From contig CAMYKS010000018.1 in NCBI GenBank assembly GCA_947259115.1, positions 1 through 64,000 on the forward strand: DNA of 64,000 nt. The letters run 5' to 3'. Made by a program: the position numbers and the translations under genes. Below the pieces are notes generated by a model. It made no database searches, was not told the DNA's origin, and was given only the letters and a program-made list of their open reading frames with translations. This document shows positions 34,783 to 56,856 of the stretch, piece by piece (position 1 is the first letter of the stretch; each line of letters starts with the position of its first letter). Source of the DNA: an uncultured Desulfobulbaceae bacterium. GTDB taxonomy: Bacteria; Desulfobacterota; Desulfobulbia; Desulfobulbales; BM004.

Positions 34783-34825
34783 GATGATTGCCTCCTATTG
34801 AACTTCAGTTTTAGTCTTTGATTTT

Positions 34826-36002: not shown

Positions 36003-36025
36003 GTCACATGCCCGTGATAGTAAGT

Positions 36026-36412: not shown

Positions 36413-36426
36413 GTTTTATCTCCTTA

Positions 36427-37581: not shown

Positions 37582-37634
37582 AACGCCACCTCTTGTTCGT
37601 TAAATTTATGTGTATTTTTATAGAAAGTTGCAAG

Positions 37635-37775: not shown

Positions 37776-37789
37776 TGTTGGTACCTCCC

Positions 37790-38212
37790 TTAATGTTGGT
37801 GATGTTCATGTTCATGCCCGGTTAATGCATCCATGATGGGACATTCACTTAATGGTCCGTGTCCATCACAGGCTCCTGCCAGATGCTCAAGGGCTCCTTG
37901 TATTTTGGAAAGGTCTTGTACCTTTTTCTTGATGTCTTCGATCTTTTCCACGGTCCGTTTTTTGATGTCCGCTTTGGTGGCATGCGGATCATGCTGCATA
38001 AACAACAGCTCTTTAATCTCTTTAAGTGTAAATCCGAGGTCTTTTGCACGTTTAATGAATTTGAGACGGCCAACCTCTTCCTCAGGGTAAATTCGGTAAT
38101 TTGAATCTGTTCTGGGAGGAGGTTTTATTAACCCCTGTCTTTCGTAAAACCGAACAGTTTCAATACCTAATCCAACCTGTTTTGCTAGTCTTCCTATGGT
38201 CAGTCCATTCAT
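37790..38212 (-). CDS. MerR-family metal-responsive regulator
   Basis: The 140-residue protein has the MerR start (LTIGRLAKQVGLGIETVRFYERQGLI), the dimer helix, and a C-terminal metal site with CDGHGPLSEC followed by a His-rich tail (HEHEHHQH). The second cysteine pair spacing fits soft metals such as Cu, Hg or Pb. It lies behind its own MerR-type promoter, and two matching promoters precede the copA operon and a PRC-barrel gene, so this is probably the local copper or metal switch. Confidence 0.9.
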   Translation of the reverse strand: MNGLTIGRLAKQVGLGIETVRFYERQGLIKPPPRTDSNYRIYPEEEVGRLKFIKRAKDLGFTLKEIKELLFMQHDPHATKADIKKRTVEKIEDIKKKVQDLSKIQGALEHLAGACDGHGPLSECPIMDALTGHEHEHHQH

Positions 38213-38256
38213 TTGAATTCTCCTTAAAATTGATTGTTTGTTCGTACTTATATTTT

Positions 38257-38288
38257 ACTGTAAACATTAGACCATACTACAGGGTCAA
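38257..38288 (-). promoter_or_regulatory. MerR-type promoter of the merR operon
   Basis: TTGACC, 20 bases, then TACAGT, read leftwards. Within the spacer and -10, CTGTA and TACAG form an inverted repeat that could be the MerR operator. The start codon of merR lies 45 bases downstream. Confidence 0.75.
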
Positions 38289-38483
38289 TAGTTATATGGA
38301 AATATTTTGCTACCATTTGACCAATGTATCGAATTGATTGGCCTATTCAGTTAACTTGCCTATGCTGCTGGACTTCGTGAAATGATGCTTGTAGTATTTG
38401 TTGATATCCGGAAAATCCGAGAACAAGAAGAGAGACTCGCCAGGCTCTCTCTTCATCATCATCCGGTTTGCGACAGACCGATA

Positions 38484-38891
38484 TTATCGGTAATATTTCT
38501 GCAGACGATCTTTGAAATCTTCGACGGACTCGCCGGGTATAATTTTAGGCCCGCTAATAAGCTTTGGTTCTGAAACATTGAACGTCGCCGTCAAACCTCC
38601 GTCAATATTTTTGATTTCCAGGGCCTCCAGCGGTACAGCAACCCTAGTATCTTCACCTATTCCGAGCATGCTTTTTCCAAGAACGACATAATTGATTTCC
38701 CCTGTAGCCGCGGCCAGATTTATATCCCGGATTATTCCGAGATGCTTGCCTTCAAGGTTGTCTACTTCCAGACCGATAAGCTGCGTGGCCGTATAAGTGC
38801 TTGCAGCCTTCACAATTTCGCCTGCAAATGACTGACTGGAAAACAACGCAACCGCCAGAATTGAGATCAATAAAATAATCTGTTTTTTCAT
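38484..38891 (-). CDS. Exported PRC-barrel protein
   Basis: The 135-residue product has a signal peptide ending SFAGE and a PRC-barrel domain: QLIGLEVDNLEGKHLGIIRDI, then INYVVLGKSMLGIGEDTRVAVP. PRC barrels are small beta domains that often bind partners or ligands. The gene has its own MerR-type promoter with a 20-base spacer and is therefore likely to respond to the same metal as copA. What it binds in the envelope is not known. Confidence 0.82.
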   Translation of the reverse strand: MKKQIILLISILAVALFSSQSFAGEIVKAASTYTATQLIGLEVDNLEGKHLGIIRDINLAAATGEINYVVLGKSMLGIGEDTRVAVPLEALEIKNIDGGLTATFNVSEPKLISGPKIIPGESVEDFKDRLQKYYR

Positions 38892-38936
38892 GATAATACC
38901 TCCATAAAATTGATTGTTTATCTATCCTTGTAATCT

Positions 38937-38968
38937 ATTATAAACATTGAACCATACTACGTGGTCAA
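38937..38968 (-). promoter_or_regulatory. MerR-type promoter of the PRC-barrel gene
   Basis: TTGACC, 20 bases, then TATAAT, read leftwards. The spacer ACGTAGTATGGTTCAATGTT matches those of the two other promoters at 16 or more positions. The PRC-barrel start codon lies 46 bases downstream. Confidence 0.78.
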
Positions 38969-39006
38969 GGGTTTAATTTAGCATTAATCACCATTTCGTA
39001 AGTAAA

Positions 39007-39043
39007 CAAAAAAAAGGACCGCAACCAGTTAAGGCTGCGGTCC
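39007..39043 (-). terminator. Rho-independent terminator of the RND efflux operon
   Basis: Read leftwards, GGACCGCA pairs with TGCGGTCC around a 12-base loop and is followed by eight or more T. It lies about 40 bases after the stop of the PII-like gene and ends the four-gene efflux operon. Confidence 0.85.
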
Positions 39044-39084
39044 ATAGAAAAACTCATTACCAGTGGACATCTCAATAAGTTATT

Positions 39085-39426
39085 TTATAACGCTGCTTTG
39101 TCCTCCTTCCCATCGCAAATGCGCAAAGCAGATTCTACCGAGGAAACAATGATTTTCCCATCACCCGGTTTACCTGTTTGTGCGTTTGCTCTGATTGTTT
39201 CAACTAGTAAAGGTACTAAGCTGTTTCTACAGATAATTTCAAAACGTACATAAATTGGAAAATCAAGAGAAAGTGGCTCCTGGTCCTCTTTGTTTTTTTG
39301 ATGGATTCCTCTGCGAACTTTTTTAACTTCGGACATGCTTGCCCCAGGGAAATCTTCAACTTGGTGAAGGGCAGATATAACATCGTCACGCAGGACGGGC
39401 CTTACCATGGCAATTATTCGTTTCAT
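39085..39426 (-). CDS. PII-like protein of a metal efflux operon
   Basis: The 113-residue protein has the PII fold pattern: MKRIIAMVRPVLRDDVISALHQV at the start, and GKPGDGKIIVSSVESALRI near the end, where GlnB has its nucleotide-binding strand. The T-loop tyrosine region is replaced by a charged segment (GIHQKNKEDQEP). Members of this subgroup are coded beside CusA-like pumps and may bind metal or a nucleotide to tune transport. Its start overlaps the pump stop by 4 bases (ATGA), so it is translationally coupled. Confidence 0.82.
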   Translation of the reverse strand: MKRIIAMVRPVLRDDVISALHQVEDFPGASMSEVKKVRRGIHQKNKEDQEPLSLDFPIYVRFEIICRNSLVPLLVETIRANAQTGKPGDGKIIVSSVESALRICDGKEDKAAL

Positions 39427-42400
39427 ACTTGCTTCCTCCTTTCTCCAATTCTATTTTCAAGCCCGCCGTATACGACAGGAATAACAAAGAGCGTCAAAAG
39501 TGTTGACGTTGCCAAACCAAAAATGACAACTGAAGCCAGCGGCCTTTGCACCTCAGAGCCAGCGCCAGTTGCAAGTAGAAGAGGCAGAAGGCCAAGGATT
39601 GTTGTCAAAGCAGTCATCAAAACGGGCCGCAATCGCAATAAAGCGCCTTCAGTGACAGCGTCATCAACGCTTCTTCCCCGCTCACGTAAATCGTTAAAGT
39701 AGGTGACTAGCACCATACCGTTTTGCACAGCAATTCCGAATAGAGCGATGAAACCAACCGAAGCAGGTACGGACAGATACTCTCCCATTATTAGTAAACC
39801 AAGAACGCCGCCTACCAGGGCGAGAGGAACATTGACCATGATGATCCCCGCCTGGCGCATGGAGCCAAAACTCATCCAAAGCATCAAGAAAACACCAAGA
39901 ATGACGATAGGGACAATAATGGATAACCGCGCCATTGCCCGCTGCTGGTTTTCAAACTGTCCTCCATACTCAATAGTATATCCGTCAGGGATTTTAACCT
40001 TTTCAGTTATATTTTGCTGAATATCTGTTACGACACTTCCTATATCTCTATTAAGAACATTTCCTTGTACTACCCAGCGCCGTTGATTCTTTTCACGATT
40101 AATCTGAATCGGCCCAGTCACCGCTTTGACCTCCGCCACCTGTCCCAGTGGAACTAACCCCCTACCAGAGGTTGCCAGCAGCATATTACGAATGGCCTCA
40201 GGATCACTACGATATTCTTCCTGATAGCGCAGATGAATACCGAACCGTCTAGTATTGAGATATATATTATCAACTACTTCACCGCCAACAGCCAACTCTA
40301 CCATTTCTAAAATCTGACTGACGCTCACCCCATAACGTGCACAGGCTTCACGGTCAGCTATGACCTGTATCTGGGGTTGGCCAAAACTCTGTTCCGTGCT
40401 CAAATCCACAAGCCCGGGTACATCTTCGATAGCTTCCTTTATCTCCTCCGACTTCTGACGTAGCACCGTCAGATCTTCACCGAACAGTTTGATAGCGAGT
40501 TGGGTTTTTACTCCAGAAAGTAACTCATCAAAAGAGTTTTGAATTGGTTGAGTAAAGTTAAATTGCACCCCTGGAACGACACTGATCTTTTTGCGTATGG
40601 CATCGATCAATTCGGCTTTGCTGGAAAAATTTTTCCAGTCTTTCTTTGATTTAAGTTCCAGGTGAATTTCACCGGTATTAACCGGGTGTGGATGGCTGCC
40701 TGCTTCTGGACGACCGATGCGAGAAACGGTCTCTTCTACTTGGGGAAACTCCAAAATTTTTCTCTCTAAAGTCATGACCGTTTTTGTCCCTTCTTCGAGT
40801 GAAATGGATGGGGCCATGGAGACTCCGATTAAAATGGAACCTTCTTCAAGGGTCGGAATAAATTCAGTACCGATAATTTTCAAAACGCCAAGGCTAATAA
40901 TCAGTGAAAGTGCCGAAAACAGGATTATGGCTTTCTTGAAACGATACGCTGCTGCCAACATGGGCCTGTATATGTTTGAGCACAATTTGATTAACCGATT
41001 TTCTTTGTGCTCTTCAGGTTTGATTAAATACAAGGACATCACAGGCGCTACCAGCAGAGCAAATAAAAGGGACCCTAATAAGGCAAATGATATGGTAAAG
41101 GCCATGGGGGAGAACATTTTTCCTTCAATGCCTTCCAGAGTAAATAATGGCAGAAAAACCAGTATAATAATTACGATGGAAAAGAGAATGGGCCGCCCCA
41201 CTTCCCGAGCAGCCGAGAGAATGACCCTCCCCTTGCTTTCACCTTTTGCTTTTTTTTGACCCATGTGGCGGTATATGTTTTCCACCATTACGATAGCGCC
41301 ATCACCGAGCATACCTATGGCTATGGCAATCCCACCCAATGACATCAAATTTGCCGATATTTCATTTAAATCCATAAAGATAATCGCCGTAAGGGCACAA
41401 ATCGGTAATGAAAGTGCGACAATAAATGCAGTACGCCAATTTCCCAGAAAGAGAGCCAAAACAAGTATAACAAGCAGGCCTCCCTGCCAAAGGGCTTTTA
41501 TTACTGTGCCTGTCGCATTGCTTACCAGTTCGGCTTGTTCATAGTAAGGAACCAATGCAACTCCTTCAGGAAGGGATTTTTCTACTTTTTCCACCTTGGT
41601 ATAAAGGCGTTCGATTACTTCAGAAGTATTTTCTCCATAAAGCTTCATGACAATGCCGGAAACAACTTCCTCTTTACCGTTTCTGGTAACCACACCGCGC
41701 CGAATTTCATTGCCATAGCTGATCTCACCTATGTCGTTCAGAGATATTGGGGTAGCGCCAATATTTTTTATTGGAATACTGGCAATATCTTCCAACTCTT
41801 CGATTAATCCGACTCCCCGCACTAGATGTTCTTCAGAACCAAGAACCAGAAACTGTCCGCCGACATTGCGATTATTGCTGTTGATCGCTGTAACAATCTC
41901 TTCAAGGCCAAGGTTATATTTTTGCAGCAGATTAGGGTCGATCTTTACCTGGTACTGCAGGACATGCCCTCCCATGGAAAGTACGTCCGTAACACCAGAA
42001 ACGGTTTGCAGCTGGAATTTCACCACCCAATCATTGATTTCTCGTAGCCAGGTAGACAGATCTTTGCCGCCAGTATCGACCTTGGTCGAATCTGCTGTCA
42101 AATAATAGATAAAGATCTGCCCAAGTCCTGTTGAGATGGGTCCCAATGAAGGCGGTTCATCCATTTCCGGCAGTTCTGCTGAGGCAGCTGCCAATCGCTC
42201 TGCAACAAGCTGACGGGCGAAGTAGATATCTACATCATCTTGAAAATAGACATAGACAACTGCCATACCAAACGCCGAGGTAGACTTGACCTGTGTAACT
42301 TTAGGCAGGCCATTCATTGCCGATTCAATGGGGTATGTAATTAAACGTTCAATTTCTTCCGGGGCCATCCCATGCCCTTCTGCGAAAACCGGCACCATTA

Positions 42401-42533
42401 CTGGGGATATATCGGGAAAGGCGTCCACAGGCATCTTCTGGTATTTAAAGATACCTGCGCCGATAACAACCAAAAGAGCAACTATCACTAAACCTGGACT
42501 TTTAAGGGCGGATTCAATTAATTTATTCAACAT
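39423..42533 (-). CDS. CusA/CzcA-family RND heavy-metal efflux pump
   Basis: The 1036-residue protein has the RND layout: membrane helix 1, a large periplasmic loop, helices 2-6 with GGIAIAIGMLGDGAIVMVEN, a second large loop and helices 7-12. It runs antiport of metal cations against protons. In the helix 4 motif the charged residue is a single Asp in GDGAIVMVEN, unlike the DFGIIVDGAV of CzcA or the MVDAAVVMIEN of CusA, so the metal cannot be assigned from it. It is coded with a membrane fusion protein and an outer-membrane channel. Confidence 0.92.
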   Translation of the reverse strand: MLNKLIESALKSPGLVIVALLVVIGAGIFKYQKMPVDAFPDISPVMVPVFAEGHGMAPEEIERLITYPIESAMNGLPKVTQVKSTSAFGMAVVYVYFQDDVDIYFARQLVAERLAAASAELPEMDEPPSLGPISTGLGQIFIYYLTADSTKVDTGGKDLSTWLREINDWVVKFQLQTVSGVTDVLSMGGHVLQYQVKIDPNLLQKYNLGLEEIVTAINSNNRNVGGQFLVLGSEEHLVRGVGLIEELEDIASIPIKNIGATPISLNDIGEISYGNEIRRGVVTRNGKEEVVSGIVMKLYGENTSEVIERLYTKVEKVEKSLPEGVALVPYYEQAELVSNATGTVIKALWQGGLLVILVLALFLGNWRTAFIVALSLPICALTAIIFMDLNEISANLMSLGGIAIAIGMLGDGAIVMVENIYRHMGQKKAKGESKGRVILSAAREVGRPILFSIVIIILVFLPLFTLEGIEGKMFSPMAFTISFALLGSLLFALLVAPVMSLYLIKPEEHKENRLIKLCSNIYRPMLAAAYRFKKAIILFSALSLIISLGVLKIIGTEFIPTLEEGSILIGVSMAPSISLEEGTKTVMTLERKILEFPQVEETVSRIGRPEAGSHPHPVNTGEIHLELKSKKDWKNFSSKAELIDAIRKKISVVPGVQFNFTQPIQNSFDELLSGVKTQLAIKLFGEDLTVLRQKSEEIKEAIEDVPGLVDLSTEQSFGQPQIQVIADREACARYGVSVSQILEMVELAVGGEVVDNIYLNTRRFGIHLRYQEEYRSDPEAIRNMLLATSGRGLVPLGQVAEVKAVTGPIQINREKNQRRWVVQGNVLNRDIGSVVTDIQQNITEKVKIPDGYTIEYGGQFENQQRAMARLSIIVPIVILGVFLMLWMSFGSMRQAGIIMVNVPLALVGGVLGLLIMGEYLSVPASVGFIALFGIAVQNGMVLVTYFNDLRERGRSVDDAVTEGALLRLRPVLMTALTTILGLLPLLLATGAGSEVQRPLASVVIFGLATSTLLTLFVIPVVYGGLENRIGERRKQV

Positions 42534-42548
42534 GATAAACCTCCACCT

Positions 42549-43889
42549 TTAATGTCCGTGCCCGGCATGTGCGCCAGCACCACTTGTTACATGGACAGCT
42601 TTTAACTCAAAAGCCCCCTTGGAAACATAACGATCACCAGCCTTAATCCCTGCCAAAATTTCTGTTTTTCCCTTTATACTTTTGCCGAGAGCAACTTCAA
42701 TTGTTTTAAAGCCATCATCATCAGGAACAAAAATGAAATTTTCTCCATCGATGTTTTGAACAGCTTCCGAAGGAACAACCACCGCTGAAGAGGGCGTTTC
42801 GCTATGAATTTGCCCTTTTACAAATATTCCTGGCTTCCAAAGGCCATTTGGATTTGGCAGGACAACTCTCCCTAAAACTGTCCGGCTCTCTTCGTTTACT
42901 ACCGGGCCAATCAGAGAAAGCTTTCCTTCAGTTACTTCGCCTTCTGTAGAAGATAACAGGATATGAAGACCCTCTTTTACCCGACCAAGGTCCTGAGCCG
43001 GGATCTGGAGGTCTACCCAGACCATAGAGAGGTCAGCAACAGTGAAGACCTCTCCCTCATCAATTTTTTCACCTCGGGTGATATGTTTAGCAATGATGGT
43101 TCCGGAAAGAGGTGACTTAAGCTCGTAACGGCCAAAGGCTTCATCCTTAGCACTCGGCAGATCATTAATTTCTTTCTCTGTCAGGCCAATAAAAATTAAC
43201 CTGCGCTTAGCTGAGTGTAACATTGTCTCGGCGTTTTGATGCACAGACTGTGCCTCAAGCCAGTCAGCTTCGCTGGCGATATTTTCCTGTTTTAAATACT
43301 GTTTCCTTTCAAAAGTACGTTTGGTTAATTCAAGGTTCCGAAGTTTTTCTAAGTAGTCGGCTTTCAACTCGGTTAATTCAGGAGAATCAATTGTGGCCAG
43401 GACCTGACCTTCCTGCACTTCATCGCCCAGGGAAATATTTACTTTATGGACAATTCCGGGAACCCTGGGGACAAGATGGGCCATTAGGTCTTCATTTAAG
43501 CGTACTTCACCGACCAATGACAAAATTTGCTCAATATCGCCAGAGTGAGCAATAGAGACAATCAGACCGATTTCTTTTTGCTGCTCCTCGGTTATTTCGA
43601 CAATGCCAGCCTCATCACTGTGTCCATGTTCATCATCTTCACTTTCTCCTTCATGTCCTTCGTCTTCACTATGGCCACTTTCCTCAGCATGCTCGTCTTC
43701 TTCATGCTCGTCCTCATCATGCCTGCCATCATCGTCATGATCATCGTTATCGTTATGCACCAGCTCTTTTTCCGGAAGGGCAGTCTCTTCAGCATTTTTT
43801 CTTTCATCATTGATGGCTGTTAGAGCTACGGCCCCACTAACTATAACGGCTAGAAAAACCACCAATAAAATTATATGTTTGTATTTCAT
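42549..43889 (-). CDS. RND periplasmic adaptor with a His/Asp/Glu-rich metal-binding region
   Basis: The 446-residue protein has a membrane-anchor start and then about 60 residues rich in His, Asp and Glu (such as HDEDEHEEDEHAEESGHSE), a likely metal sponge. A typical fusion-protein body follows: the lipoyl-like segment LGDEVQEGQVLATIDSPEL, a hairpin, and GTIIAKHITRGEKIDEGE. It ends in a His-rich tail (GAGAHAGHGH). It connects the pump to the outer-membrane channel. The acidic and histidine stretch favours divalent metals such as Zn, Ni or Co, but this is inference. Confidence 0.9.
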   Translation of the reverse strand: MKYKHIILLVVFLAVIVSGAVALTAINDERKNAEETALPEKELVHNDNDDHDDDGRHDEDEHEEDEHAEESGHSEDEGHEGESEDDEHGHSDEAGIVEITEEQQKEIGLIVSIAHSGDIEQILSLVGEVRLNEDLMAHLVPRVPGIVHKVNISLGDEVQEGQVLATIDSPELTELKADYLEKLRNLELTKRTFERKQYLKQENIASEADWLEAQSVHQNAETMLHSAKRRLIFIGLTEKEINDLPSAKDEAFGRYELKSPLSGTIIAKHITRGEKIDEGEVFTVADLSMVWVDLQIPAQDLGRVKEGLHILLSSTEGEVTEGKLSLIGPVVNEESRTVLGRVVLPNPNGLWKPGIFVKGQIHSETPSSAVVVPSEAVQNIDGENFIFVPDDDGFKTIEVALGKSIKGKTEILAGIKAGDRYVSKGAFELKAVHVTSGAGAHAGHGH

Positions 43890-45265
43890 GATAAATCCCT
43901 TTCTGTTGTATCATTATTTTTAGGAGATAATACCGGTGCAGATGTTGCCCCTTTACCGATAAGGCGCTCAATTTCGATTCTGCTATTTTCCTGTTCTAGA
44001 AGCAGATTGAGATGGGTTCTGCGGGTATCAATCCAGGTCCTCTGTGCGTCCAATAGGCTGAGGATATCTAACTCGCCTGCATTATATGCCTTGTTGATTG
44101 ATTCATAGGCATTTTGTGCTACAGGAAGCACTCGAGACTCCAGTGATTGAACAGCTTTCCTGGAAGAAACCAGGGTTTGCCAAGCCTCTTGCAGTTCTGT
44201 ATAAAGGTCCAGTAGTTCAGCCTCATTTTCATAATGCACCTTGCGGGACAGAGCTTTTGCTTCAGCAATGCCTCCCTGGTTTCTATTAAATAAAGGAAGT
44301 GGAATACTTATCCCCAGGAAAAAAGCATGGTCGTTGGTTTCATTAAAATGTTGAATACCGCCTGCCAGTTCCAAGTCAGAAGCTTTTTCTGCCACGGCCA
44401 GATTAAGATTGGCATCAGCCCCAGCTAATTGTGCCTCCATGAGATACCATGCAGGGCTCTGCTTAATAGCTTCTTTCAGCTCCTGTTCCGTAAAATCTGG
44501 GACAGGTTTATATTGGGCTGAGATTTTTGAAAAACGAGGAAATTGTGCCCCCCATGACGAAGCTAAAATATACTTTGCTGCCTCAAGTTCTCTTCTGGTC
44601 TGTTCGATTTCGACTTCCGCCATTGCCAGTTCTACTTGACTTTTAGTAAGATCAAGAGGCGAGGTGTCACCAACTTTAACCCGCTTGACAATAACTTCAT
44701 GTATCTTGCTGATAAGTTCTACCTGCTCCTCCTGAAGACTCAATAGTTCTTGTAAAGTAAAAACTTTAACAAAACGTTTCTCGACCTGAGCCTTGATTTC
44801 GATAATTTCTATCTGGTGCTCAAGGTCGGCGATTCTAATTGCAGCCTCAGCTTCGCTAACCCGTTTGTTGATTTTTCCGCCAAGTTGAAACTCCTGGCTG
44901 ATGCCTACCCGGCTGGACATGGCATCGGTTCCAGAATAATCTCCTGAGCCACCAAATTCTTCAATTTCTCCGAACAAGGCCGGGTTAGCAGGCAAGCCAG
45001 CCTGTTGTGCTTTTCCTTGTCTGGCTATTATTTCATGCCAGGTTGCACCTAGAGATGGATGGTTATTAATAGCTGTTTCCAAGGCCCAGTCAAGAGTGAG
45101 CGGATCGGCAGGCTTTTCGAGTTTTGCTGGAGTCTCTCCAGTTAAAGTGTATTGCGGCTGAACAAGCTCTGCACTTGAAGAAGCGGCCAAACAATTATTT
45201 GGCATAGTGTATTCAGCCATAAAAAGTGTCATGGTTAAAGACACCCATAGAACCGAAAATTTCAT
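43886..45265 (-). CDS. TolC/CzcC-type outer-membrane channel
   Basis: The 459-residue protein has a signal peptide and two OEP repeats: LDWALETAINNHPSLGATWHE in the first half and the coiled helices with LTKSQVELAMAEVEIEQTRREL, then LGISIPLPLFNRNQGGIAEA. The latter is the typical signature of CzcC-like channels. It forms the outer exit of the RND pump. It overlaps the adaptor gene by 4 bases and is the first clearly linked gene of the pump operon. Confidence 0.9.
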   Translation of the reverse strand: MKFSVLWVSLTMTLFMAEYTMPNNCLAASSSAELVQPQYTLTGETPAKLEKPADPLTLDWALETAINNHPSLGATWHEIIARQGKAQQAGLPANPALFGEIEEFGGSGDYSGTDAMSSRVGISQEFQLGGKINKRVSEAEAAIRIADLEHQIEIIEIKAQVEKRFVKVFTLQELLSLQEEQVELISKIHEVIVKRVKVGDTSPLDLTKSQVELAMAEVEIEQTRRELEAAKYILASSWGAQFPRFSKISAQYKPVPDFTEQELKEAIKQSPAWYLMEAQLAGADANLNLAVAEKASDLELAGGIQHFNETNDHAFFLGISIPLPLFNRNQGGIAEAKALSRKVHYENEAELLDLYTELQEAWQTLVSSRKAVQSLESRVLPVAQNAYESINKAYNAGELDILSLLDAQRTWIDTRRTHLNLLLEQENSRIEIERLIGKGATSAPVLSPKNNDTTERDLS

Positions 45266-45429
45266 AAATATATACCTCAGTTATACTTTACTGTGTCTGC
45301 CGTGTATCACGAAAAGCTGTGGCAGTAACAGATAAGCTTGGAGTAAAAACAAGCTTAACCAGAAGTGTTAGGCATGTAGCAACTACATGCAGCATTTCAT
45401 TCTTGAATGGAAAAACTACTTGCGAGGTT

Positions 45430-46074: not shown

Positions 46075-46590
46075 TTATTTCTCAGCCAGTAGCTGGTCCA
46101 GGCGGGCTTGCAGTTTTATAAGTTTGGCATCGAAGCTTGTTGTGTTTAAGAGATCAAAAAACTGTATCTTCCCTTTATCATCAATAATCAGATTTGACCC
46201 GATAGCGACTTCTGAACGTGAGAGATCCGGCAACAGGTTTGGTGGCGAATAACTTGCGGCGACCTCTCCCTTGAGATCCAGCAGGACCGGGAAAGTAAAT
46301 CCTCTCTTACTGGACCATCTAGCCGCCACTTCTTTGCTTTCTTTTACATCGATGATGAGAACCTGGACATTCCGATCCTTATGTTCTTTCCAGAGTGCTT
46401 CAAGATGCGGAGCCTCCGCATTACAGAATGGTCACCAGCTTGTTGCAAAGTGGATGACGACGAAATTGTCGAGCAGATCGGCAAGGGCTACATTCCCACC
46501 CTGTAGGGTTTCCAGATTGAATGCAGGGGCAGTTTCTCCAATTTTAGGCTGCGGGAGTTCCTCAGCAAAGCCGCTTACTGGAAAAGTCAT
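46075..46590 (-). CDS. TlpA-like thioredoxin selenoprotein with UPFC motif (in-frame UGA at 46432-46434)
   Basis: The frame encodes a thioredoxin domain: GETAPAFNLETLQGG, VVIHFATSW, then UGA, then PFCNAEAPHLEALW. The UGA replaces the first cysteine of the expected WCxxC, giving WUPFC. After it the frame continues with LIIDVKESKEVAARW and the C-terminal strands. A perfect hairpin, TGCGGA/TCCGCA with loop GGC, begins 11 bases after the UGA. An ATG with a GAGG site lies at 46646-46648. It would give a fine signal peptide if one extra T after it were absent, so the coordinate uses the first in-frame ATG. The true start is probably upstream, through a frameshift or sequence error. Confidence 0.8.
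46406..46420 (-). promoter_or_regulatory. Candidate bSECIS hairpin of the TlpA-like selenoprotein
   Basis: Six paired bases (TGCGGA with TCCGCA) around the loop GGC, starting 11 bases after the UGA on the coding strand. Bacterial SECIS elements lie within the coding sequence just after the UGA and usually have a G in the apical loop, as here. Confidence 0.75.
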
Positions 46591-46739: not shown

Positions 46740-47588
46740 TCATATATTTTTGTTCTTTTCTTTTCCAGATGGTTCACGCCCGCTCCGGTTAATAGGATAC
46801 GCACCAGGATCACCGACGAAAGGTAACGCTAACAACCAAGGAAGTGTAAGTCGTTTCTGGTCACGGAACTGTGAAAGACCAATTGTCATTTCTTCATGAC
46901 CAGCCGCTGGTTGAGCTCTGTATGTTCCAAACAGCCTGTCCCACCAAGGAAAATTAAAACCGAAGTTACTGTTTGTTTCTCTGATGACAACTGAATGATG
47001 TACTCGATGCATGTCTGGAGTTACCACAATAAGGCGAAGCAATCTGTCAACACCAGAAGGCATATGGATATTTCCATGATTAAACATTGAGGTTCCATTG
47101 AGAAGAACTTCAAAAAGGATTACGGCGAGAACTGGAGGACCAATAATTACAACTGTGGCTATTTTAATACCCATGGACAACATGACCTCTATGGGATGAA
47201 ATCTTAGTCCCGTTGTTACATCTACATCAAGATCTGCGTGGTGCATCATATGGAGACGCCAGAAAACCGGGACCGCATGAAACATTACATGTTGGAAATA
47301 GATGATAAGATCAAAGGTTAGGACTGCTATCAAAATTTTGATGGGATACGGAAGGGAGATCTGGTTAAGTATTCCGACTGAGGCTTGACTAGCTGCAAAG
47401 GAGGCGGCAAGAACAGGGAAAATTCCTCTTACAACTGCGGTTCCCAGAACAGTAATACTTATATTGCTGAACCAGCGAACGGTTTTTGAAGTGGTGAATT
47501 GGCGCCGGGGTGACAGAAATTCCCAAATCGCAACAGCAACAAAGATACCGAAAAAAGCTGTAAGCCTTACGGATACCTCATTAATCAT
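46740..47588 (-). CDS. Sterol desaturase/fatty acid hydroxylase superfamily membrane protein
   Basis: The 282-residue membrane protein has the di-iron histidine clusters of the superfamily: FQHVMFH, HMMHHADLD and HRVHHSVV, spread between four or so membrane helices, with NFGFNFPWWDRLFGTY near the end. These enzymes oxidise lipid carbons at a di-iron site. Finding one in a selenium/sulfur redox operon is unexpected. It lies 3 bases after the thioredoxin-like gene, so co-transcription is clear, but the lipid substrate is unknown. Confidence 0.88.
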   Translation of the reverse strand: MINEVSVRLTAFFGIFVAVAIWEFLSPRRQFTTSKTVRWFSNISITVLGTAVVRGIFPVLAASFAASQASVGILNQISLPYPIKILIAVLTFDLIIYFQHVMFHAVPVFWRLHMMHHADLDVDVTTGLRFHPIEVMLSMGIKIATVVIIGPPVLAVILFEVLLNGTSMFNHGNIHMPSGVDRLLRLIVVTPDMHRVHHSVVIRETNSNFGFNFPWWDRLFGTYRAQPAAGHEEMTIGLSQFRDQKRLTLPWLLALPFVGDPGAYPINRSGREPSGKEKNKNI

Positions 47589-47591
47589 AAT

Positions 47592-48020
47592 TCAGCCTGC
47601 ATCTCCGGAAAACTCCTTCTCCTTTAGAGCTTTTTCAATGGCTGCCTCAAGTTCTGTTGGGTGTGGTACGGTTGTAAAGGTTACTTCTCCGTTTATAAGG
47701 ATAGTCGGTACTTTCAGCATCTTCCCTGCCTTTTCACATAAAGTCAAAAAATACCTGGCGTCCTTCTCGTCCCCTTGCCTGATTACTGTGCGAATATCGA
47801 TCAGACCTTCGAATTTTTCAGCAATCATATCTACAGTGTTAATCGCAAAATCATAGAGGACACAGTGGACACGTTCGCAGATTATTTCGACAAGAACGGG
47901 TGCTTTTCCTGTGGCTACCCGTGGCTGAATAGGCTCATAAAGATCATCTGGTATGCTATGCGTTTTACAACCGGAAGATTCTTCACTAAGTACTTCAATT
48001 TCTAGATCCTTTTTAGACAT
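47592..48020 (-). CDS. Thioredoxin-like protein with a CxxxxC pair
   Basis: The 142-residue protein has an N-terminal tail with one cysteine, then a thioredoxin-type fold: VLVEIICERVHCVLYDFAI (CxxxxC), later the cis-proline segment LKVPTILINGEVTFTTVPHP and a closing helix. It probably works as a soluble thiol carrier in the cytoplasm since no signal peptide is seen. Its spacing to the DsrE gene (32 bases) and to the desaturase-family gene (3 bases) shows membership in the selenium operon. Confidence 0.75.
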   Translation of the reverse strand: MSKKDLEIEVLSEESSGCKTHSIPDDLYEPIQPRVATGKAPVLVEIICERVHCVLYDFAINTVDMIAEKFEGLIDIRTVIRQGDEKDARYFLTLCEKAGKMLKVPTILINGEVTFTTVPHPTELEAAIEKALKEKEFSGDAG

Positions 48021-48052: not shown

Positions 48053-48412
48053 TTACCAGGTAATTGATTCCCGGTCTGCCATTTCAGCAGCAATTGTCGG
48101 GATATGAATTATCTTGACACCTTCAACAAGTTCATCTTCGGAAATATTGTAGGTTTTGGCGCAGGCGCCACATAAATACATCGGAACTTTTTCCTCGAGC
48201 AAGATAGGGAAAAGGTCTCTGACAGGGGCAAAATTTCTTCCTTCGATGGTTTCGGCCACACCTTTCTTGGCTAAATGAGCGCCTTCAAAAATATAAAATA
48301 TAACCAAATCAGCATTTTCACTGAGAAGAGATACAGCAAGTGCAACAGCAGCGTTTGCCCTGTCCTGGTCATCGGTGGAATGGGTGATAATCAAAACATA
48401 TTTTTTGTTCAT
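48053..48412 (-). CDS. DsrE-family sulfur-carrier protein
   Basis: The 119-residue protein has a DsrE/TusD-like fold: VLIITHSTDDQDRANAAVALAVSL at the start, DLVIFYIFEGAHLAKKG, and the cysteine segment MYLCGACAKTYNI with two cysteines where family members carry a persulfide. It should accept and pass sulfane sulfur in the cytoplasm. It lies 20 bases after a second, longer DsrE-like gene, and the two may form a heteromer as TusBCD and DsrEFH do. Confidence 0.85.
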   Translation of the reverse strand: MNKKYVLIITHSTDDQDRANAAVALAVSLLSENADLVIFYIFEGAHLAKKGVAETIEGRNFAPVRDLFPILLEEKVPMYLCGACAKTYNISEDELVEGVKIIHIPTIAAEMADRESITW

Positions 48413-48432: not shown

Positions 48433-48852
48433 TTAAAAAACTAAATTCATGTCAGCTTTCATGACAATATCAGTGTAATAGGTTTCGGGGTCTGCAAGGG
48501 TGACACCTTCGATGAAGTCATCATCTTCAAATTCAAAAACACTTTTATTGAGTGGACAGGCCAGAAGCCTAGCCCCCTCCATGTGCAGCATGAGCAGCAT
48601 GTCTTCCGGCATTGGCAGGTTCATTGCTTCCATGCGGGCCATTACTTTCTGCTGTTCTTCCTCCGGCTGGTCGGGCAAGCATTTAAGGTCGTTAATTTTT
48701 TCTTTATGCACCGCGTTGATGCCTCGTGATCCGAAAAAAACGGTTACCTCAGCTCCGGCTCGCTGTAAGCTCAAAGCGGTCATCAGGCCGTTGAATACCT
48801 GGCAAAGTTCATCGTGAAAAATCATAATAGATGCATTTTTGTGTTCACTCAT
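48433..48852 (-). CDS. DsrE2-like protein
   Basis: The 139-residue protein has IMIFHDELCQVFNGLMTALSLQRAGAEVTVFFG, typical of the longer DsrE-like (DsrE2/peroxiredoxin-like) group, and a second cysteine segment ARLLACPLNKSVF. One of the two cysteines probably carries a persulfide. It lies between the GGPU selenoprotein gene and the shorter DsrE gene with spacers of 41 and 20 bases. Confidence 0.8.
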   Translation of the reverse strand: MSEHKNASIMIFHDELCQVFNGLMTALSLQRAGAEVTVFFGSRGINAVHKEKINDLKCLPDQPEEEQQKVMARMEAMNLPMPEDMLLMLHMEGARLLACPLNKSVFEFEDDDFIEGVTLADPETYYTDIVMKADMNLVF

Positions 48853-48893: not shown

Positions 48894-49211
48894 TTACTTG
48901 CCGAACAATTTACTCATAACGCCCTTTTTCCCCTCCTCCGGTTCCGGAAGTTTCAGTTGTCTACAGATTGCCACCTCAACTGTATGATCATCTATATCCT
49001 TTCCCTCTGTTATGATCGCTTCACCTACCATGATGGCTGGGGCAACCGGCAGATCCAGGGCAAAATATTCATCAGTTAGATACTCGGATTTTGGTTTTGA
49101 CATGACTTCAATTTCAATGTCATATTTATCGCCCAACCTGGGCATCATTTTGTAAAAATGTTTTCACGGGCCGCCATTCGGCTCATTCATAAAAAAATGT
49201 ACCTTCAGCAT
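48894..49211 (-). CDS. Small thioredoxin-fold selenoprotein with GGPU motif (in-frame UGA at 49164-49166)
   Basis: The 105-residue protein starts at an ATG preceded by AGGTGAC, 9 bases after the stop of the rhodanese fusion. It reads KVHFFMNEPNGGP, UGA, KHFYKMMPRLGDKY, then LPVAPAIMVGEAIITEGKD, a strand-helix-strand and cis-proline pattern of the thioredoxin fold. Sec16 takes the place of the second cysteine of a CGPC motif, while the first position is Gly. A GCCC/GGGC hairpin with loop AGGTT begins 20 bases after the UGA. Starting after the UGA would lose the first strand and the active site. I do not know a characterised family with this motif. Confidence 0.82.
49131..49143 (-). promoter_or_regulatory. 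Candidate bSECIS hairpin of the GGPU selenoprotein
   Basis: GCCC pairs with GGGC around AGGTT, beginning 20 bases after the UGA; a T-G pair can extend it by one. The loop contains GG. It is the weakest stem of the five, but its position and loop agree with the others. Confidence 0.65.
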
Positions 49212-49220
49212 ATTGTCACC

Positions 49221-50957
49221 TCATCTTCGTAATACTTTTTGCATGTGAATAATGAAATCTTTCGGCTTCATGAATTCAACCAGGCGTAGATCATGACGCT
49301 CCTGTCCGTTACCATCCAAAAACACCACTGTTGGAACTCCTTTAACATTATAGTCCTGCAAAAGTTTCTGATATTCAGGATTATCGTCAGTGGTCAGATC
49401 AACCTTTACCATCAGGAACTGTTTAGATTCAGCTAACACTTTTGGGTCATGAAAAGTTATTTCATCCAGTTCCCTACATGGTGCACACCATGTAGCATAA
49501 AAATCTATAATCACTGGCTGCCCCTGCTGTCTTGCTTGTTCCATAACAGTGCCAGAGTATGTCTGCCAGGCCACACCCGGCTGACGCAGCAATGTGGAAG
49601 CGGCTAGAAAAATAGCCAAACTAATGCATAGCAAACCTATACTTTGCTTAATCCACGGGAAGCCTTTGAATGTAGCTTTGCTTTTATCAAGCCAGGCAAG
49701 ATGAATCCCTGCTGACAGGGTAATAACACAATAGAGTACTATACTGGCAGTTTTGGGCAGCAGGGGCCGGAGGAAGTAAGCAGCCATGCCGACCAGTACC
49801 CACCCCATAAGTTTTCTGATCCAGACCATCCACTCCCCTGATCGGGGAAGTTTTTCAAGTTTTCCGGAGAAAAGGGCAAGTATGAATAAAGGGAGTCCCA
49901 GCCCAAGGCTTAACGAAAAGAAAATAATAAAACCGAACCCTGGACTGCCGATGCTGGCGATCCAAGTGAGTAATCCCAGTACAAACGGGCCTATGCAGGG
50001 TGCAGCAATGATACCCAGCGTAAGTCCCATAAAGAGAGTGCCGAAATAACCGGTATAGGATTTTGAAGCAGCTTGCGTGAGACCCTGTGGCAACCGTAAT
50101 TCCCAGAGACCAAAAAGGCTTGATGAAAAGGTAAGCAAGATAACAGAGACACCCACCAGTACCCAGGCATTCTGTAACATGGCTCCCATCAGACCGCCTG
50201 TCAGGGCAGCAATGATGCCCAGGGTAGAATTTGTGATAGCAAGCCCTGCTAGATATGATAAACCGTGCGCAACAAGTTTCCCCTGACCCCGACCACTACG
50301 TCCTCCAAAATAAGAAACAGTGATGGGAATAAGAGGATAGACGCAGGGTGTCAGGTTGAGAGCCATCCCACCAATAAAAACACCTAACAGAGTCCACAGA
50401 AGTGTCATGCCGGTAGGCGCTTTGTTTTGGGGGGAGGAACTCGCTCCTTGGAATTGCAGAACATTGAGGTTTTCTGTTTTAGCAACGGGCAGACCGTTAT
50501 CATTCCATTCTGGGTAACCCTGCGGATAACGGTAAACATTTTTGTAGCCTAAAGAAACAGCCACCCGGGCTGCTGAGTCACTGCGGACTCACGTCAGGCC
50601 TGCTCAGTAGAACACCAGGGTTTTAGTTTTGTCAGGTCCAAGAAACTGTTCAAGCGCACCACGCTGGGTCATTCTGGCCAGCCAGGTCGGTTCCATAGAG
50701 AAGAAGGCGGCACCCTTGATATATCCCGCATGATATTCCCACTCCTGTCGTGTATCTACCAGGAGCAGGTTATTATCAGCCTGCTGGTAAAGTTGCCACA
50801 GTTCATCCATGTTAATGAGCTGATAGCCGCCTCTTTGGGCTTCAGCTTGGACATCAGCATTAGATGCAACTTGAGGTTTGGCTATGCATTGTTGACTGAA
50901 GAAAACACCAACTGCAAGGATAATTATTATTGATGAAATCCGGACTAATTTTCTCAT
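49221..50957 (-). CDS. Rhodanese-DsbD-thioredoxin fusion with two selenocysteines (UGA at 50604-50606 and 50589-50591)
   Basis: The frame encodes about 578 residues: a signal peptide (ending IAKP), a rhodanese domain with LLLVDTRQEWEYHAGY, a DsbD-type membrane domain with LTPCVYPL and AAPCIGP, and a C-terminal thioredoxin with FYATWCAPCREL. The rhodanese active loop reads FY-U-AGLT-U-VRSDSAARVA. Non-selenium relatives have FYC-GG-xx-C at these places, so both cysteines, including the catalytic one, are replaced (Sec118 and Sec123). Frame and homology continue across both UGA codons without a gap. Each UGA is followed by its own hairpin. The ATG at 50957 precedes the signal peptide; an in-frame TTG at 51005 is less likely. 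Confidence 0.88.
50558..50572 (-). promoter_or_regulatory. Candidate bSECIS hairpin for the second UGA of the rhodanese fusion
   Basis: CAGCC pairs with GGCTG around CGGGT, starting 16 bases after the second UGA; a G-T pair can extend the stem. The loop holds GGG. Confidence 0.7.
50574..50591 (-). promoter_or_regulatory. Candidate bSECIS hairpin for the first UGA of the rhodanese fusion
   Basis: TGAGTC pairs with GACTCA around CGCAGT, starting 12 bases after the first UGA. The second UGA forms the base of this stem, so both decoding signals overlap. Translating the second UGA must open the hairpin that served the first. Confidence 0.7.
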
Positions 50958-51008: not shown

Positions 51009-51788
51009 TTAGCCGAAAAATGCTGACATCAAAATACGGACAGCCGCAACAGCAATTAATACTCCAAGAATTTTTCGTAATTTTACAACCGGCACCCTAT
51101 GGCTCAATATTCCACCCAGTTGAGTTGCTGGGATTACGGTGAGCACGATGGGTACAGCAAGTCGCCATTCTATTTGGCCTGTAAACGCTTTACCAAGAAA
51201 ACCTGCGGCTGAAGACAGCAGTACAATTGCCAGATTACTCCCAATGGCAATGCGGGTTGGTATGTGTACAAATGATGTCATTAAAGGAATGAGGATGAAA
51301 GAGCCACCCTGACCGACCATCCCACCAAGAACCCCAACACTCCCCGCAGTTGAAACCGCACGCCATAAGCTGAAAGAAAGATCGGTAACATCCGGCGTCT
51401 TCTTTTCTTTTGCTCTTGGCATAAGCATCAGTATTGCAGCAAAAAACGCAAGTGCTCCAAAAACCAGAAGAAGTAAATGATTTGATGCGTATCCTGATCC
51501 AGCACCTCCAAGCAATGCAGTAATAAAGATGGTCGCCCCCATCCACCCTGCAAGTCGTATAGAGACAGAATTAAAGCGTTTATGGACAACAACACCAGAA
51601 ATACAGGCGACTAGTCCCTGTACAATGGTAAGTCCTGCAACAGTATGCATGGAGAGCTGCTCAAAGCCTAATAATGGGGGCACATAAAGGAGCAAGGGTG
51701 CCATGATGATGCCGCCACCAATTCCAAGTAATCCTGAAAGGAAACCACAGATTACTCCCAGAAAAGCAATAAGCAGATAAATACCCAT
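51009..51788 (-). CDS. TauE/SafE-family membrane permease
   Basis: The 259-residue membrane protein has the two-repeat layout of the family: GVICGFLSGLLGIGGGIIMAPLL in the first repeat and GGMVGQGGSFILIPLM in the second, with about eight helices. Members export sulfite, sulfoacetate or other sulfur anions, and some move other anions. It lies 4 bases after selD and about 50 bases before the rhodanese fusion, so it probably moves the sulfur or selenium compound that this operon handles. Confidence 0.88.
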   Translation of the reverse strand: MGIYLLIAFLGVICGFLSGLLGIGGGIIMAPLLLYVPPLLGFEQLSMHTVAGLTIVQGLVACISGVVVHKRFNSVSIRLAGWMGATIFITALLGGAGSGYASNHLLLLVFGALAFFAAILMLMPRAKEKKTPDVTDLSFSLWRAVSTAGSVGVLGGMVGQGGSFILIPLMTSFVHIPTRIAIGSNLAIVLLSSAAGFLGKAFTGQIEWRLAVPIVLTVIPATQLGGILSHRVPVVKLRKILGVLIAVAAVRILMSAFFG

Positions 51789-51792: not shown

Positions 51793-52842
51793 TCAAACCA
51801 CCGTAATACCTATTGGTTCGTCGATGATTTCGCCAATCCGAGTTGCAGGGATATTGTCTTTTTGCATTTGACTCATCAATTCATTCGCTTGATCATGTGG
51901 AAGAGACAATAGCAATCCACCGGAGGTCTGAGGGTCATAAAGCAGTTCCTCCTCAGCAGCTGTCAATTTGGCTGCCATTTGTAAATGATGTTTTGCAACC
52001 ATTGCTCGATTCCCTTTATTGCTGCCCGTTGTCTCACCTTTTTTATACATCTCCAACGCAGCCGGATAAATTGGTAGAGCTTTATATTTAACAACAACTC
52101 TGGCATCACTGCCGTGAGCAACTTCCAGCAAATGACCCAGGATACCGAAACCTGTGATGTCTGTGCAGGCGTGCAAGTCAAACTGCAGAGCTAATTCCAT
52201 AGCCCTCCCATTCAAAGCAGCCAGTGTCGGCAGGGTGTTGCTCTCCAGTTCTTTAAAAGACAACTTGCCGGAACGTACGGCATTAAAGAGCACGCCTGAC
52301 CCGATGGGCTTGGTAAGAATAAGAGTATCGCCCGGTTGTGAACCTGCATTCGTAATGACCCTGTCCGGATGAACAACTCCATTTACGCAAAGTCCATATT
52401 TGGGTTCCTCGTCATCAACTGTATGGCCACCTACCAAACAAGCTCCAGCCTCTACCACCTTGTCGTGACCGCCACGAAGTATGTCTCGGAGCATACCCAT
52501 ATCGAGATGCTTGCTTGGAAACATTACAACGTTTAAGGCAGTGACAGGCTTACCCCCCATGGAATAAACATCTGATATTGAATTGGCTGCAGATATTTGA
52601 CCAAACCAGTAAGGATCGTCAACCGGGGGAGTGATGAAATCAACGGTATTGATCATGGCAACATCTTTTGATAGCCGGTAAACCGCTGCATCATCGGCGG
52701 TTTCTATGCCGACTATGAGGTTAGGATCAGTTGGGGTTGGCAAGCCTTCAAGTGCTTCCGACAGAGCCGTCGGACTGATTTTTGCTGCTCAACCACAGGT
52801 GCGGGCTAGGCCGGTAAGTGTCTTTTTTTTAAAAATTTCCAT
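51793..52842 (-). CDS. selD: Selenophosphate synthetase SelD containing selenocysteine (UGA at 52789-52791)
   Basis: The 349-residue enzyme makes selenophosphate from selenide and ATP for selenocysteine synthesis. The frame starts with an ATG preceded by AGGAACC and reads LTGLARTCG, UGA, AAKISPTALSEAL. The UGA is at the catalytic position (Sec18), where other SelD proteins have Cys or Sec. Then follow GIETADDAAVYRL, CTDITGFGILGHLLE and LLYDPQTSGGLLLSL, all typical of SelD. A CCGAC/GTCGG hairpin begins 15 bases after the UGA. It is the first gene of the nine-gene selenium operon. Starting at the TTG at 52743 would drop the active site. Confidence 0.95.
52758..52773 (-). promoter_or_regulatory. 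Candidate bSECIS hairpin of selD
   Basis: CCGAC pairs with GTCGG around GGCTCT, 15 bases after the UGA on the coding strand. The GG in the loop fits the bacterial SECIS consensus. Confidence 0.75.
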
Positions 52843-53140: not shown

Positions 53141-53807
53141 ATCGAGTAGGCGGCGGGGTCACCCCCCTGCCTCTCACACCACCGGGCATACGGTTCCGTA
53201 CCACGGCAGTTCCTTACGTTGATATTATTCCAAATTTTCGTAATTGTCCGAGCAGTGATATCAACCCCAGGACATCAAAGTACTTCTTTGGCAGGGCGTA
53301 GTTCGTGTACGACGCTCCTGAGTTATACCAGGGGCCTCGCCCGTTGAAGGCCGATGCCGCTGCTCTTTCCTCTGCTATTCCACGCTTCATCAAATTCTTG
53401 AGACGTGTCCATGACCGTTTCCATTGACGCCAGACGATCAGGCGCAACCTCCTCCTGATCCATTGGTCAAGTTCTTCCGCATAGCCTTTATTTTCCGCTA
53501 GGAGCCTGTCGGGGAATTATAATCGTAACGAAAAATTGAGGAATTGAGATCAAATTTTCGGGAAATTGATGCGAATAGCAGCGCTATTTAAAGAATGCGG
53601 AACCTTTCCACTGACTCTGCAGATACTCTGATTCTGCTCTCCTTATGGGATGTGAATGAATAGCCGAGAAATTTCCGCTGCCACGGACGGGCTACTGCGC
53701 TCTTGGCTTTATTTACCTTGAGCTTCAGCTCCGATTCCACAAAACGCCTGATTGAGTTCATCACCCGTTCAGCGCCGAGTCTGCACCCAACATAGATGTT
53801 GCAGTCT

Positions 53808-55194
53808 AGGGTAAAGGAATGGCTCTCACCATTCCCTTCCCATCCCACCGTACGTTCAGTTTTCCCGAATACGGCGGTCCGATAGTCTTCATCTTAAATC
53901 ATGCACAGGTTTCGAAACATACTCCAGCATGCCGCTGCCTATGTAAACCATTCCCATAGCATACAGCTTCCTGTTTGGGTATTTATCCCACCCAAAACCT
54001 CGGCCTTTACTTCTGAAGGTCAAGTATCTTCGAAATCGAGTATTAACAAACCGCTGCAGCCGCCGAAATGCATCACTGGCATTTGTGTGACGAAAATAGT
54101 TTACCCACCCCATCACAATTGGTCTTACCAGTTCAACAAATTCTTTTGGACTGATTGGCGCTCTTCTGGACGTTAAATATTTCAGCCTATTACGAATCTT
54201 CTGCTGCGCTTTCTTTGCAGGAAAAATGTAAATGGTATTCTTTCCCGTCGTCGGACTTTTGCGCTTCCTGAAATTGAATCCGATAAAATCAAAACCATCT
54301 GTCAATTTCGTGATATGCGTTTTATCCTTATTCAGAGTAAGATCCATTCGTTTTGCGATGGCTTTAAATGCGGACAAGGCAGGGTACCACCGTTTGGCTT
54401 TGGTATCATTACCCGCCGTACTGGAGTAAACTGGTAAACTTGATCTCGCAGTTGCTTTTGCAAATGAAAAATTATTTCACCTTCTTGACCATTATCTACA
54501 ATTTGATCAATCGCAACACCATCTATTCCAGGCGCACCTTTGTTCTCCTTGACTTGCCGCCAGGATTCCCAAAGGACATCTTCGCGCCACAACTTATCGT
54601 ATAAACTGTAAAATCTGAACGTCCCCTCCTGCTTGGATTTAAGATATAGGGCTCTCTGAAGTCGCCGAACGTTATCTCTGTTCATAGCCTTTTGGCAATC
54701 AGACATCCTCAACTCCTTCAAACTCCATTAACTAAAGTAGAACCCCTTTCCTCTCCCCTGGTTTCCCAAGCGATGATAACGGTACTATGAGCCCCGCGGA
54801 ATCCTTATACAGCCAACATGGACTTCGGCTCTGCCTTATACCATGCCGTTTCCCATAGCCAGTGGGACTGCATAAGGCCTCCCGGCCTACGACGTAAAAC
54901 ATTCACAGCGTGCAACCCTTAACACCCCGGCACCCAAAGATAGTTCTTCTGACCATTATATCCCTATCTCTTGACAGCCTTCCCGAGCAGACGATACGGT
55001 CGGCAAGTGCAAGCACGTATAACGAGGCTAATTCAGGTTCACTTTTGTTGCAGCCCGCTGTTTTGCATCTATCGTTCAAAGTCACTTGAGCCTACAGATC
55101 ACTCCATAAACCCGACTTCCTGCTAGACGCCCGAATGGTCAATTGGCGTCAGGGGACTTCCACCCCATATGTTCTACGCCTGTACCGGCGTGCC
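53808..55194 (-). mobile_element. Second group II intron, inserted in the catalytic motif of the outer one
   Basis: This 1.39-kb element interrupts the outer reverse transcriptase between the two aspartates of FADD (GCTGAT before it, GACTGC after it). Its right end has a domain V/VI-like structure (GTATTCGGGAAAACTGAACG, then GGGAATGGTGAGAGCC and CCATTCC). Its left part holds about 450 bases of non-coding RNA-like sequence. It carries its own reverse transcriptase gene with the catalytic core deleted. Precise ends are estimated from the outer reading frame. Confidence 0.65.
53889..54721 (-). pseudogene. Inner-intron reverse transcriptase with the core deleted
   Basis: The frame from 54721 gives a typical group II reverse transcriptase start (LWREDVLWESWRQVKENKGAPGIDGVAIDQI) up to RRVMIPKPNGG. 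In another frame, from about 54377, it goes on with KAIAKRMDLTLNKDKTHITKL and the maturase end FVELVRPIVMGWVNYFRH. Palm motifs such as the catalytic YADD are missing between the two parts. The protein family of the inner copy differs clearly from that of the outer copy. Confidence 0.75.
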
Positions 55195-56856
55195 ATCAGC
55201 GAACCGAGTCAATCGATACCCCTTTCGACGCATCTCTCGATCAAACGGAGTTAAAAGAACATTACTGATCAAGGGCGAAATCACCCCACCTTGGGGGACG
55301 CCTCTTTGTGTTTGATGGACCTTACCATCTTCCAGATAGCCAACTTTCATGATGGACTCAAGCAACACCAATACACGTCCGTCCGCTACCCGTTGATTGA
55401 GCAGCACCATGAGCTTTTCGTGAACTGCCGATCCGAAAAAGTCTTTTAGATCCGCATCCACTACCCACTCATAGCCTTGTTCAACCTCGCATTAGATCTT
55501 GCGCAATGCATCTTTCGCTGATCTTCTTCGCCGATATCCAAAGCTGGCCTCATCGAACACCGGTTCAAAGATAGGTTCAAGCCGGTTCAGTAGCGCCTGC
55601 TGACACACCCTATCATAGATAGTTGGTATGCCAAGCGGACGAAACTTGCCAGGCTGTCCACTCTTGGGTATTAGATGCCGCTTCACCGGTTGAGGCTGAT
55701 AAGTCTGTGTACGCAGCTCATCATGTAATCGTTTGAGGTTCCCTTCCAGGTTCCTCTCAAAGTCATCGATGCTCTGCCCATCTACTCCGCCTGACCCTCG
55801 GTTGCGCTTCACCTACTCCCAAGCCAACTCCAAGTTCTTCAGCTTGTACACTTTATCCACTAATGAGTGGACCTTCTTCTCTCCTGTTGGATTCAGCCAG
55901 TGCGCTAATCTCCTCGGTCTATTGCCTAGGGGTTTTTCACTTAGGGAACTTATCCTTGCCATATACCTTACTCATTAGTTGACTGTCTTACTCCAGCCAC
56001 CTTGTCGACTGCCTTCCCCAGCTCACTCCGCTGCCGCATTGTGCGGTCACCCTACTTTCGTAGAACTTAAGGTACTATTCAGTCGTCCGACGACTCATAG
56101 AACATCGCTTTCCACTTCGCTTTCACTTATAGGATCACTTATCTCAGTGCCACCTGAGAATCCTATGAGCCCTCCTGGGGTCACGCATTGATCTTCCACA
56201 CCGTGCCATCCGCACACACCTTGGTTCGATGGGTGAATAAGAACGCCTTCGCCTCCATAGTGCAGGCTCGACCTTGCCCCATCTTTGGCCGACCGGTTCA
56301 TCTGTAGGGTCGCCCCTTCGATTACGGCCCGGTGTTTCTCCTCAAACCCTTCGGATTCCACCTCACGATGGACACCCTGTCCTCCACAGCCGACTCTTCG
56401 ACTCTAGCCAGCGAGGCATTACCCCCGCTTTTGGATACAGCGCCCCTTATCTGAGCGCTGGAGGGACTTTAACCCTCCTGATCAATGCGCTGCCCAGCGC
56501 ACACTATGACCTCGGCTGACTTCTCATGATACATCCTGATACTTCTCAGCATCAGTAGCACTAAGGCATATCATGAGATCTCCCCGGGTAATGCGCACTC
56601 ACCTTCACGCTTATGCCCGCCACATATACGTCCGTGCCTTCCGTACAGGTATTGGACTTTGAAGATAATCGCCTTCTCATCCGACACGACCGCCTCATAT
56701 GTGATTCCTGTTCGTCAGGCCAGCGCTTTGCCTGCGGCTTCCTTCAGTCAACACCTCACGATGTCAGCCTTGCCGTCCGGCTAATACTTCCCCCTATCGG
56801 GTGTATAGAGGACTTGCACCTCCAAGTAAGTGCGCCCTGCCGGGCGCACAACTAAA

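Follow-up and report, generated by a model that had tools for sequence, protein, structure and literature searches.

TsoA, TsoB, and TsoC are listed among the predicted prokaryotic selenoproteins in a 2026 review (PMC13188914), which expands Tso as "three selenoprotein operon" and credits Haft and Tolstoy (2025, mSystems 10:e01417-24). TsoC is represented by the NCBIfam profile NF045708 ("NEPxGxxU motif selenoprotein TsoC"). Over the 41 loci compared in this study, the recurrent gene order is TsoR–TsoA–TsoB–TsoC–VTT, with TsoC often in tandem copies; the regulator TsoR (ArsR/SmtB type, NF045707) is found in about 33 loci, two or three of these matches being weak, TsoA and TsoB are found in 30 loci each, and a VTT/TVP38-type membrane protein follows TsoC in 18. 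Beyond the Tso system, the small redox proteins of the MTH895/Thioredoxin_3 type have the same fold as TsoC, with CxxC in place of its GxxU. The SelW/Rdx proteins are likewise small, adopt a thioredoxin fold, and carry Sec in the second place of the motif, which is however CxxU in SelW and GxxU in TsoC, the first position being Gly also in the Cys homologues of the latter; TsoC thus stands outside the SelW family. ArsD resembles TsoC in its thioredoxin fold, in the reactive residue placed in the β1–α1 loop, and in its ArsR-type regulated setting, but has several Cys residues, whereas TsoC has a single invariant chalcogen, the Sec.

Identity and reading frame of the gene

The gene examined here lies at 48894..49211 on the minus strand of the 64,000-nucleotide stretch of DNA that was analyzed (hereafter, the window) and encodes, when TGA is read as U, a thioredoxin-fold selenoprotein of 105 residues, which begins with MLKVHFF, ends with SKLFGK, and has the motif NEPNGGPU with U as residue 16. 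A Shine–Dalgarno sequence, GAGGTGA (49216..49222, minus strand), is located 4 nt ahead of the ATG and shares nucleotides with the stop codon of tsoB, the gene upstream; the plus strand of 48894–49211 contains TAA and is non-coding. The 105-residue frame, its ribosome site, and the in-frame UGA at codon 16 had all been recognized in the initial annotation, which left the strand unstated. The same annotation recognized no characterized family; the protein nevertheless matches NF045708 with 143.4 bits against a cut-off of 45 (E = 1.5e-42), residues 2–87 aligning to positions 1–86 of the 87 in the model, and thus falls into a family that already has a name. It agrees with TsoC in length, in Sec position, and in motif, the U of NEPxGxxU being encoded by TGA at codon 16 (49164..49166, minus strand), scores three times the cut-off, and is encoded with the TsoB partner, the gene of which is directly upstream (49221..50957, minus strand). 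The latter encodes a fusion selenoprotein composed of a rhodanese (FYUAGLTU), a DsbD transmembrane domain, and a thioredoxin, with two in-frame UGA codons, and matches NF045694 with 935.6 bits (cut-off, 805). No Pfam model matches the window TsoC, and a single-sequence search against solved structures gave no match. Judged from its sequence, the window gene is a further member of the already named TsoC family, to which the present analysis adds evidence for a recoding hairpin together with three further findings: one copy in which Cys occurs naturally, a C-terminal tail that is conserved, and a distant homologue of the GxxC form joined to a DUF5714/MbdU-like region.

Selenocysteine codon and its downstream hairpin

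Of 395 genomes sampled from the phylum to which the window belongs, 30 have TsoC above the cut-off, and every copy in these genomes has exactly one in-frame TGA. Within a set of 55 close homologues, 54 have UGA at this codon and one has UGC (Cys); the latter, a tandem paralogue (locus L003, 5610–5867, plus strand), adjoins an intact Sec copy and with it provides a ready-made Sec/Cys pair for biochemistry. Purifying selection acts on both sides of the UGA, with pN/pS values of 0.25 before and 0.33 after it. An ATG-initiated open reading frame of 84 residues does exist downstream, so that the UGA might be read as a true stop with translation starting at Met22 or Met23. The 15 codons ahead of the UGA are under purifying selection, however, the first Met after it is replaced by Ile or Leu in nine of the 55 copies, and in 54 of 56 copies the upstream start has a ribosome-site-like sequence ahead of it; a frame beginning downstream of the UGA therefore does not fit. 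With the natural Cys copy at codon 16 and a downstream hairpin conserved at the RNA level also standing against it, the probability of a start at Met22 or Met23 is practically negligible.

The bSECIS-type hairpin (GCCCA-GGU-UGGGC, 49131..49143, minus strand) starts 20 nt past the UGA. In an alignment of 53 distinct UGA copies of tsoC, its five stem pairs are formed in 97% of the cells, two of the pairs show compensatory changes affecting both sides, pairing falls to 55% or less when the partner is slid by one to three columns, and RNAalifold independently recovers the same stem. The hairpin Pro codon is CCC in 51/51 and the Arg codon AGG in 50/50 cases, as compared with usages of 0.33 and 0.14 elsewhere in these genes, and the same holds after thinning to 21 divergent copies (CCC in 19/19, AGG in 20/20); where Arg is replaced by Ser, the codon is AGT, so that the AG is retained. 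Because these synonymous Pro and Arg codons are frozen, conservation of the protein alone does not explain the hairpin, which also has a G early in its loop and lies close downstream of the UGA, as is characteristic of hairpins in bacterial selenoprotein genes. In the Cys copy of L003, a C–G stem pair is changed to A–G and the hairpin is broken, as expected if it is no longer needed without the UGA. The decayed hairpin of this copy and the frozen CCC-AGG-YTG codons of the others together constitute RNA-level evidence for recoding of the UGA in this family.

As regards the machinery for such recoding, the genome of the window contains SelB (368 bits), tRNA-Sec (70.8 bits), and selD (TIGR00476), the last of which is located within the window itself. 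Taken together, the NF045708 match, the purifying selection on both sides, the conservation as UGA or UGC, and the frozen hairpin exclude a chance UGA, and codon 16 of tsoC is, on comparative grounds, a selenocysteine codon under selection.

A remote homologue with Cys and no UGA (locus L102, 1712–2716, minus strand; NNPMGVRC, a GxxC form) is N-terminal to a DUF5714/MbdU-like metal-binding region and is the sole Cys homologue found outside Tso operons. A class-level search around its genome (G004) for this GxxC fusion returned only G004 itself, so that the homologue is known from one genome; a more sensitive search of the phylum for Cys forms of TsoC yielded no strong new one, the weak matches inspected being CxxC proteins, and no TsoC was found on plasmids at E ≤ 0.01. 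Thus, both Sec and Cys occur at the position of codon 16 among homologues, as the initial annotation had proposed to look for. A very divergent TsoC (locus L101, 9828–10085, plus strand) keeps the TGA (HPPGRRU), lacks the usual CCCAGG hairpin, and has neither TsoA nor TsoB nearby.

Predicted fold and active site

The AlphaFold2 model of TsoC, built from 18 sequences (pLDDT 82, pTM 0.70), shows the topology E-H-E-H-E-E-H, with the tail disordered; U16 is placed immediately before the helix 17–30, and P58, invariant, occupies the cis-Pro position. Nearly all the top matches of the model in a Foldseek search against the PDB are thioredoxin-fold proteins (ArsD, thioredoxins, and glutathione transferases), the best of them being weak (E = 0.013), and in VIA-align a putative Se-binding protein (2obk, Z = 8.0), which is also the link to SelW/Rdx, ranks on top, followed by thioredoxins with Z values of 7–8, scores that are suggestive and not decisive by the tool's own note. 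In an alignment of 73 columns to a CKKC protein of the MTH895/Thioredoxin_3 type encoded in the same genome (locus L121, 352–600), G13 and U16 fall on the two Cys residues, and Gly13 and Sec16 likewise fall on the first and second Cys of a designed thioredoxin. With helix 1 beginning at the active site and with a candidate cis-Pro loop, TsoC is predicted to have a thioredoxin-like fold of the type βαβαββα, within which the classical CxxC motif is replaced by GGPU. The thioredoxin fold and the placement of Sec at the second and Gly at the first position of the motif had been proposed from the sequence, and the predicted topology, the sequence profiles, and the alignments to CxxC relatives now support both.

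Across the divergent TsoC set, N9, P11, G13, U/C16, L26, and P58 are invariant, and no other invariant Cys is found. All members have Gly at the first position, also where Cys takes the place of Sec, as in the GxxC form of L102, which places TsoC among the few thioredoxin-fold families with near-universal Sec and with Gly always at the first active-site position. With Gly standing where the nucleophilic Cys would be, and with no further Cys conserved throughout, TsoC would be unable to form an internal Se–S bond or to act as an ordinary dithiol. The window protein does contain Cys84 in helix 3, which could resolve Sec16 as in an ordinary CxxC-type disulfide reductase; this residue is however replaced in many members, which have VIRxHL or IIRQRM there, and we consider such a reaction very improbable. 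The mono-thiol mechanism suggested in the initial annotation is therefore a reasonable one, supported by the absence of any other invariant Cys in the family, and remains one deduced from sequence comparison.

Genomic neighborhood of the window locus

In the window, tsoC is part of a run of genes, all on the minus strand and separated by gaps of 3–51 nt, that consists of selD (51793..52842; with its own in-frame UGA, TCGUAAK), a TauE/SafE family transporter gene (51009..51788; Pfam PF01925), tsoB, tsoC, the genes for two DsrE/DsrF-like proteins with Cys, DsrEa (48433..48852; Pfam DrsE_2), the next gene downstream of tsoC, and DsrEb (48053..48412; Pfam DsrE), and those for a thioredoxin-like protein (47592..48020), which is weakly related, in a Cys form, to the HUIPC family (NF047660, 52 bits, below the cut-off of 105), and a fatty acid hydroxylase family membrane protein (46740..47588). 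With their common strand and short gaps, these genes look like one transcript. As compared with the usual Tso locus, SelD, TauE, DsrE, the thioredoxin-like protein, and the fatty acid hydroxylase are added here, and TsoA and TsoR are missing above the cut-off: the assembly of this genome, a 91% complete draft, has no match to TsoA, and all its matches to TsoR are below the cut-off. The Tso operon is thus apparently incomplete at the window locus, although the protein, by profile and motif, is still TsoC, and the retention of TsoB–TsoC helps to define the minimal unit of the system. Since this genome is without TsoA, TsoA is not indispensable, and since about one in four loci (11/41) has no TsoB in the vicinity of TsoC, TsoC does not depend on TsoB alone. 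Other genes recur less often near TsoC over the 41 loci: DsrEa in six (the window included), the fatty acid hydroxylase in six, ArsM-like genes in five, TauE in four, SelD in two, and TsoX (HSGNPxU), which adjoins TsoC in three.

The order TsoB–TsoC–DsrEa–DsrEb in the window is compact, with gaps of 9–41 nt, and both DsrE proteins have Cys at the usual place, which fits the proposal of the initial annotation that TsoC could be a shuttle linking the DsbD fusion with the DsrE pair. In this reading, TsoC would receive sulfane sulfur (or selenium) as a selenopersulfide from the rhodanese of TsoB and hand it to the DsrE proteins. DsrEa is indeed found near TsoC in the six loci mentioned above, but is lacking in the remaining 35, and TsoB is lacking nearby in 11. 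Moreover, an N-terminal signal-like segment is present in TsoB and absent from TsoC and DsrE; the rhodanese of TsoB comes after this segment and hence probably lies outside the cytoplasm, across the membrane from TsoC, so that such a shuttle would need to cross the membrane. Overall, we regard the proposal as improbable, possible in this lineage, and unable to be the general function of the family. DsrE as an obligatory partner of TsoC was rejected, given its presence in only 6/41 loci in comparison with 30/41 for each of TsoA and TsoB.

Predicted mechanism of TsoC

The likeliest, though unproven, reading of these results is that TsoC is a carrier with a single selenol that works with TsoA and TsoB. 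Specifically, we propose, with about as much confidence as doubt, that the gene encodes the cytoplasmic thioredoxin-fold selenoprotein of the Tso system, acting as a single-selenol adduct carrier in exchange with TsoB and/or TsoA. In the predicted reaction, the selenol of TsoC would take one covalent adduct at a time from a partner and pass it on. This adduct could be a mixed selenosulfide or, alternatively, carry sulfane, selenane, or a soft metal; the exchange partner would most likely be the cytoplasmic face of the DsbD-type membrane domain of TsoB and/or the Sec protein TsoA.

The C-terminal tail, KKGhLGRLFG(K/R), with which most TsoC1 copies end and which is encoded in the window at about 48897–48926 (minus strand), is cationic and would hold TsoC close to the membrane, although its role in docking to a membrane or a partner is offered only as a suggestion. 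It is absent from tandem second copies and from the TsoC of seven genomes without intact TsoB (G357, G376, G020, G295, G129, G231, and G330). A strict link between the tail and TsoB was rejected when five further genomes were tested, since tailed TsoC occurs in draft genomes without full TsoB.

The nature of the cargo leads to a further alternative, namely that TsoC handles soft metals or metalloids, its selenol binding As(III), Hg(II), or a similar ion and passing it on in the manner of an ArsD-like metallochaperone. The ArsR/SmtB-type operon regulator TsoR, the ArsM-like genes near some loci, and the fusion of the L102 homologue to an MbdU-like metal-binding region point to metal(loid) handling no less than to redox or sulfur chemistry, and, in view of the regulator, the MbdU-like fusion, and a weak likeness to ArsD, the best Foldseek match, this reading has about equal support. 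A metal-efflux island is also present in the window at approximately 25–45 kb. On the other hand, TsoC offers one conserved ligand per monomer and lacks the three-Cys site of ArsD, the DsbD-type redox partner speaks for traffic of electrons or thiols, and ArsM-like genes are near only 5/41 loci, so that we regard metal(loid) handling as the function of TsoC as possible but rather doubtful. Returning to the single-selenol carrier, a more elaborate form of it may be envisaged, in which the single selenol of a membrane-tethered TsoC would be loaded with one covalent adduct, or relieved of it, where a DsbD-type conduit faces the cytoplasm, the adduct being sulfane, selenane, or soft metal and the conduit ending in the double-Sec rhodanese. 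This form has, in our estimate, only an outside chance of being correct; if true, it would represent a selenium-based transmembrane relay working without dithiol–disulfide exchange.

Other features of the window

Translations of the open reading frames at about 25770–45270 delineate the metal-resistance island of the window, with a multicopper oxidase, a P-type ATPase, a MerR-like regulator, and an RND efflux system with membrane-fusion and outer-membrane genes. At 46075–46590 (minus strand), a protein of the TlpA/AhpC-TSA type has an in-frame UGA in the motif SWUPFC and is below the cut-off for every NCBIfam selenoprotein family. Finally, several group II intron pieces and reverse-transcriptase fragments lie beside tRNA-Leu at 53800–56770 (minus strand).
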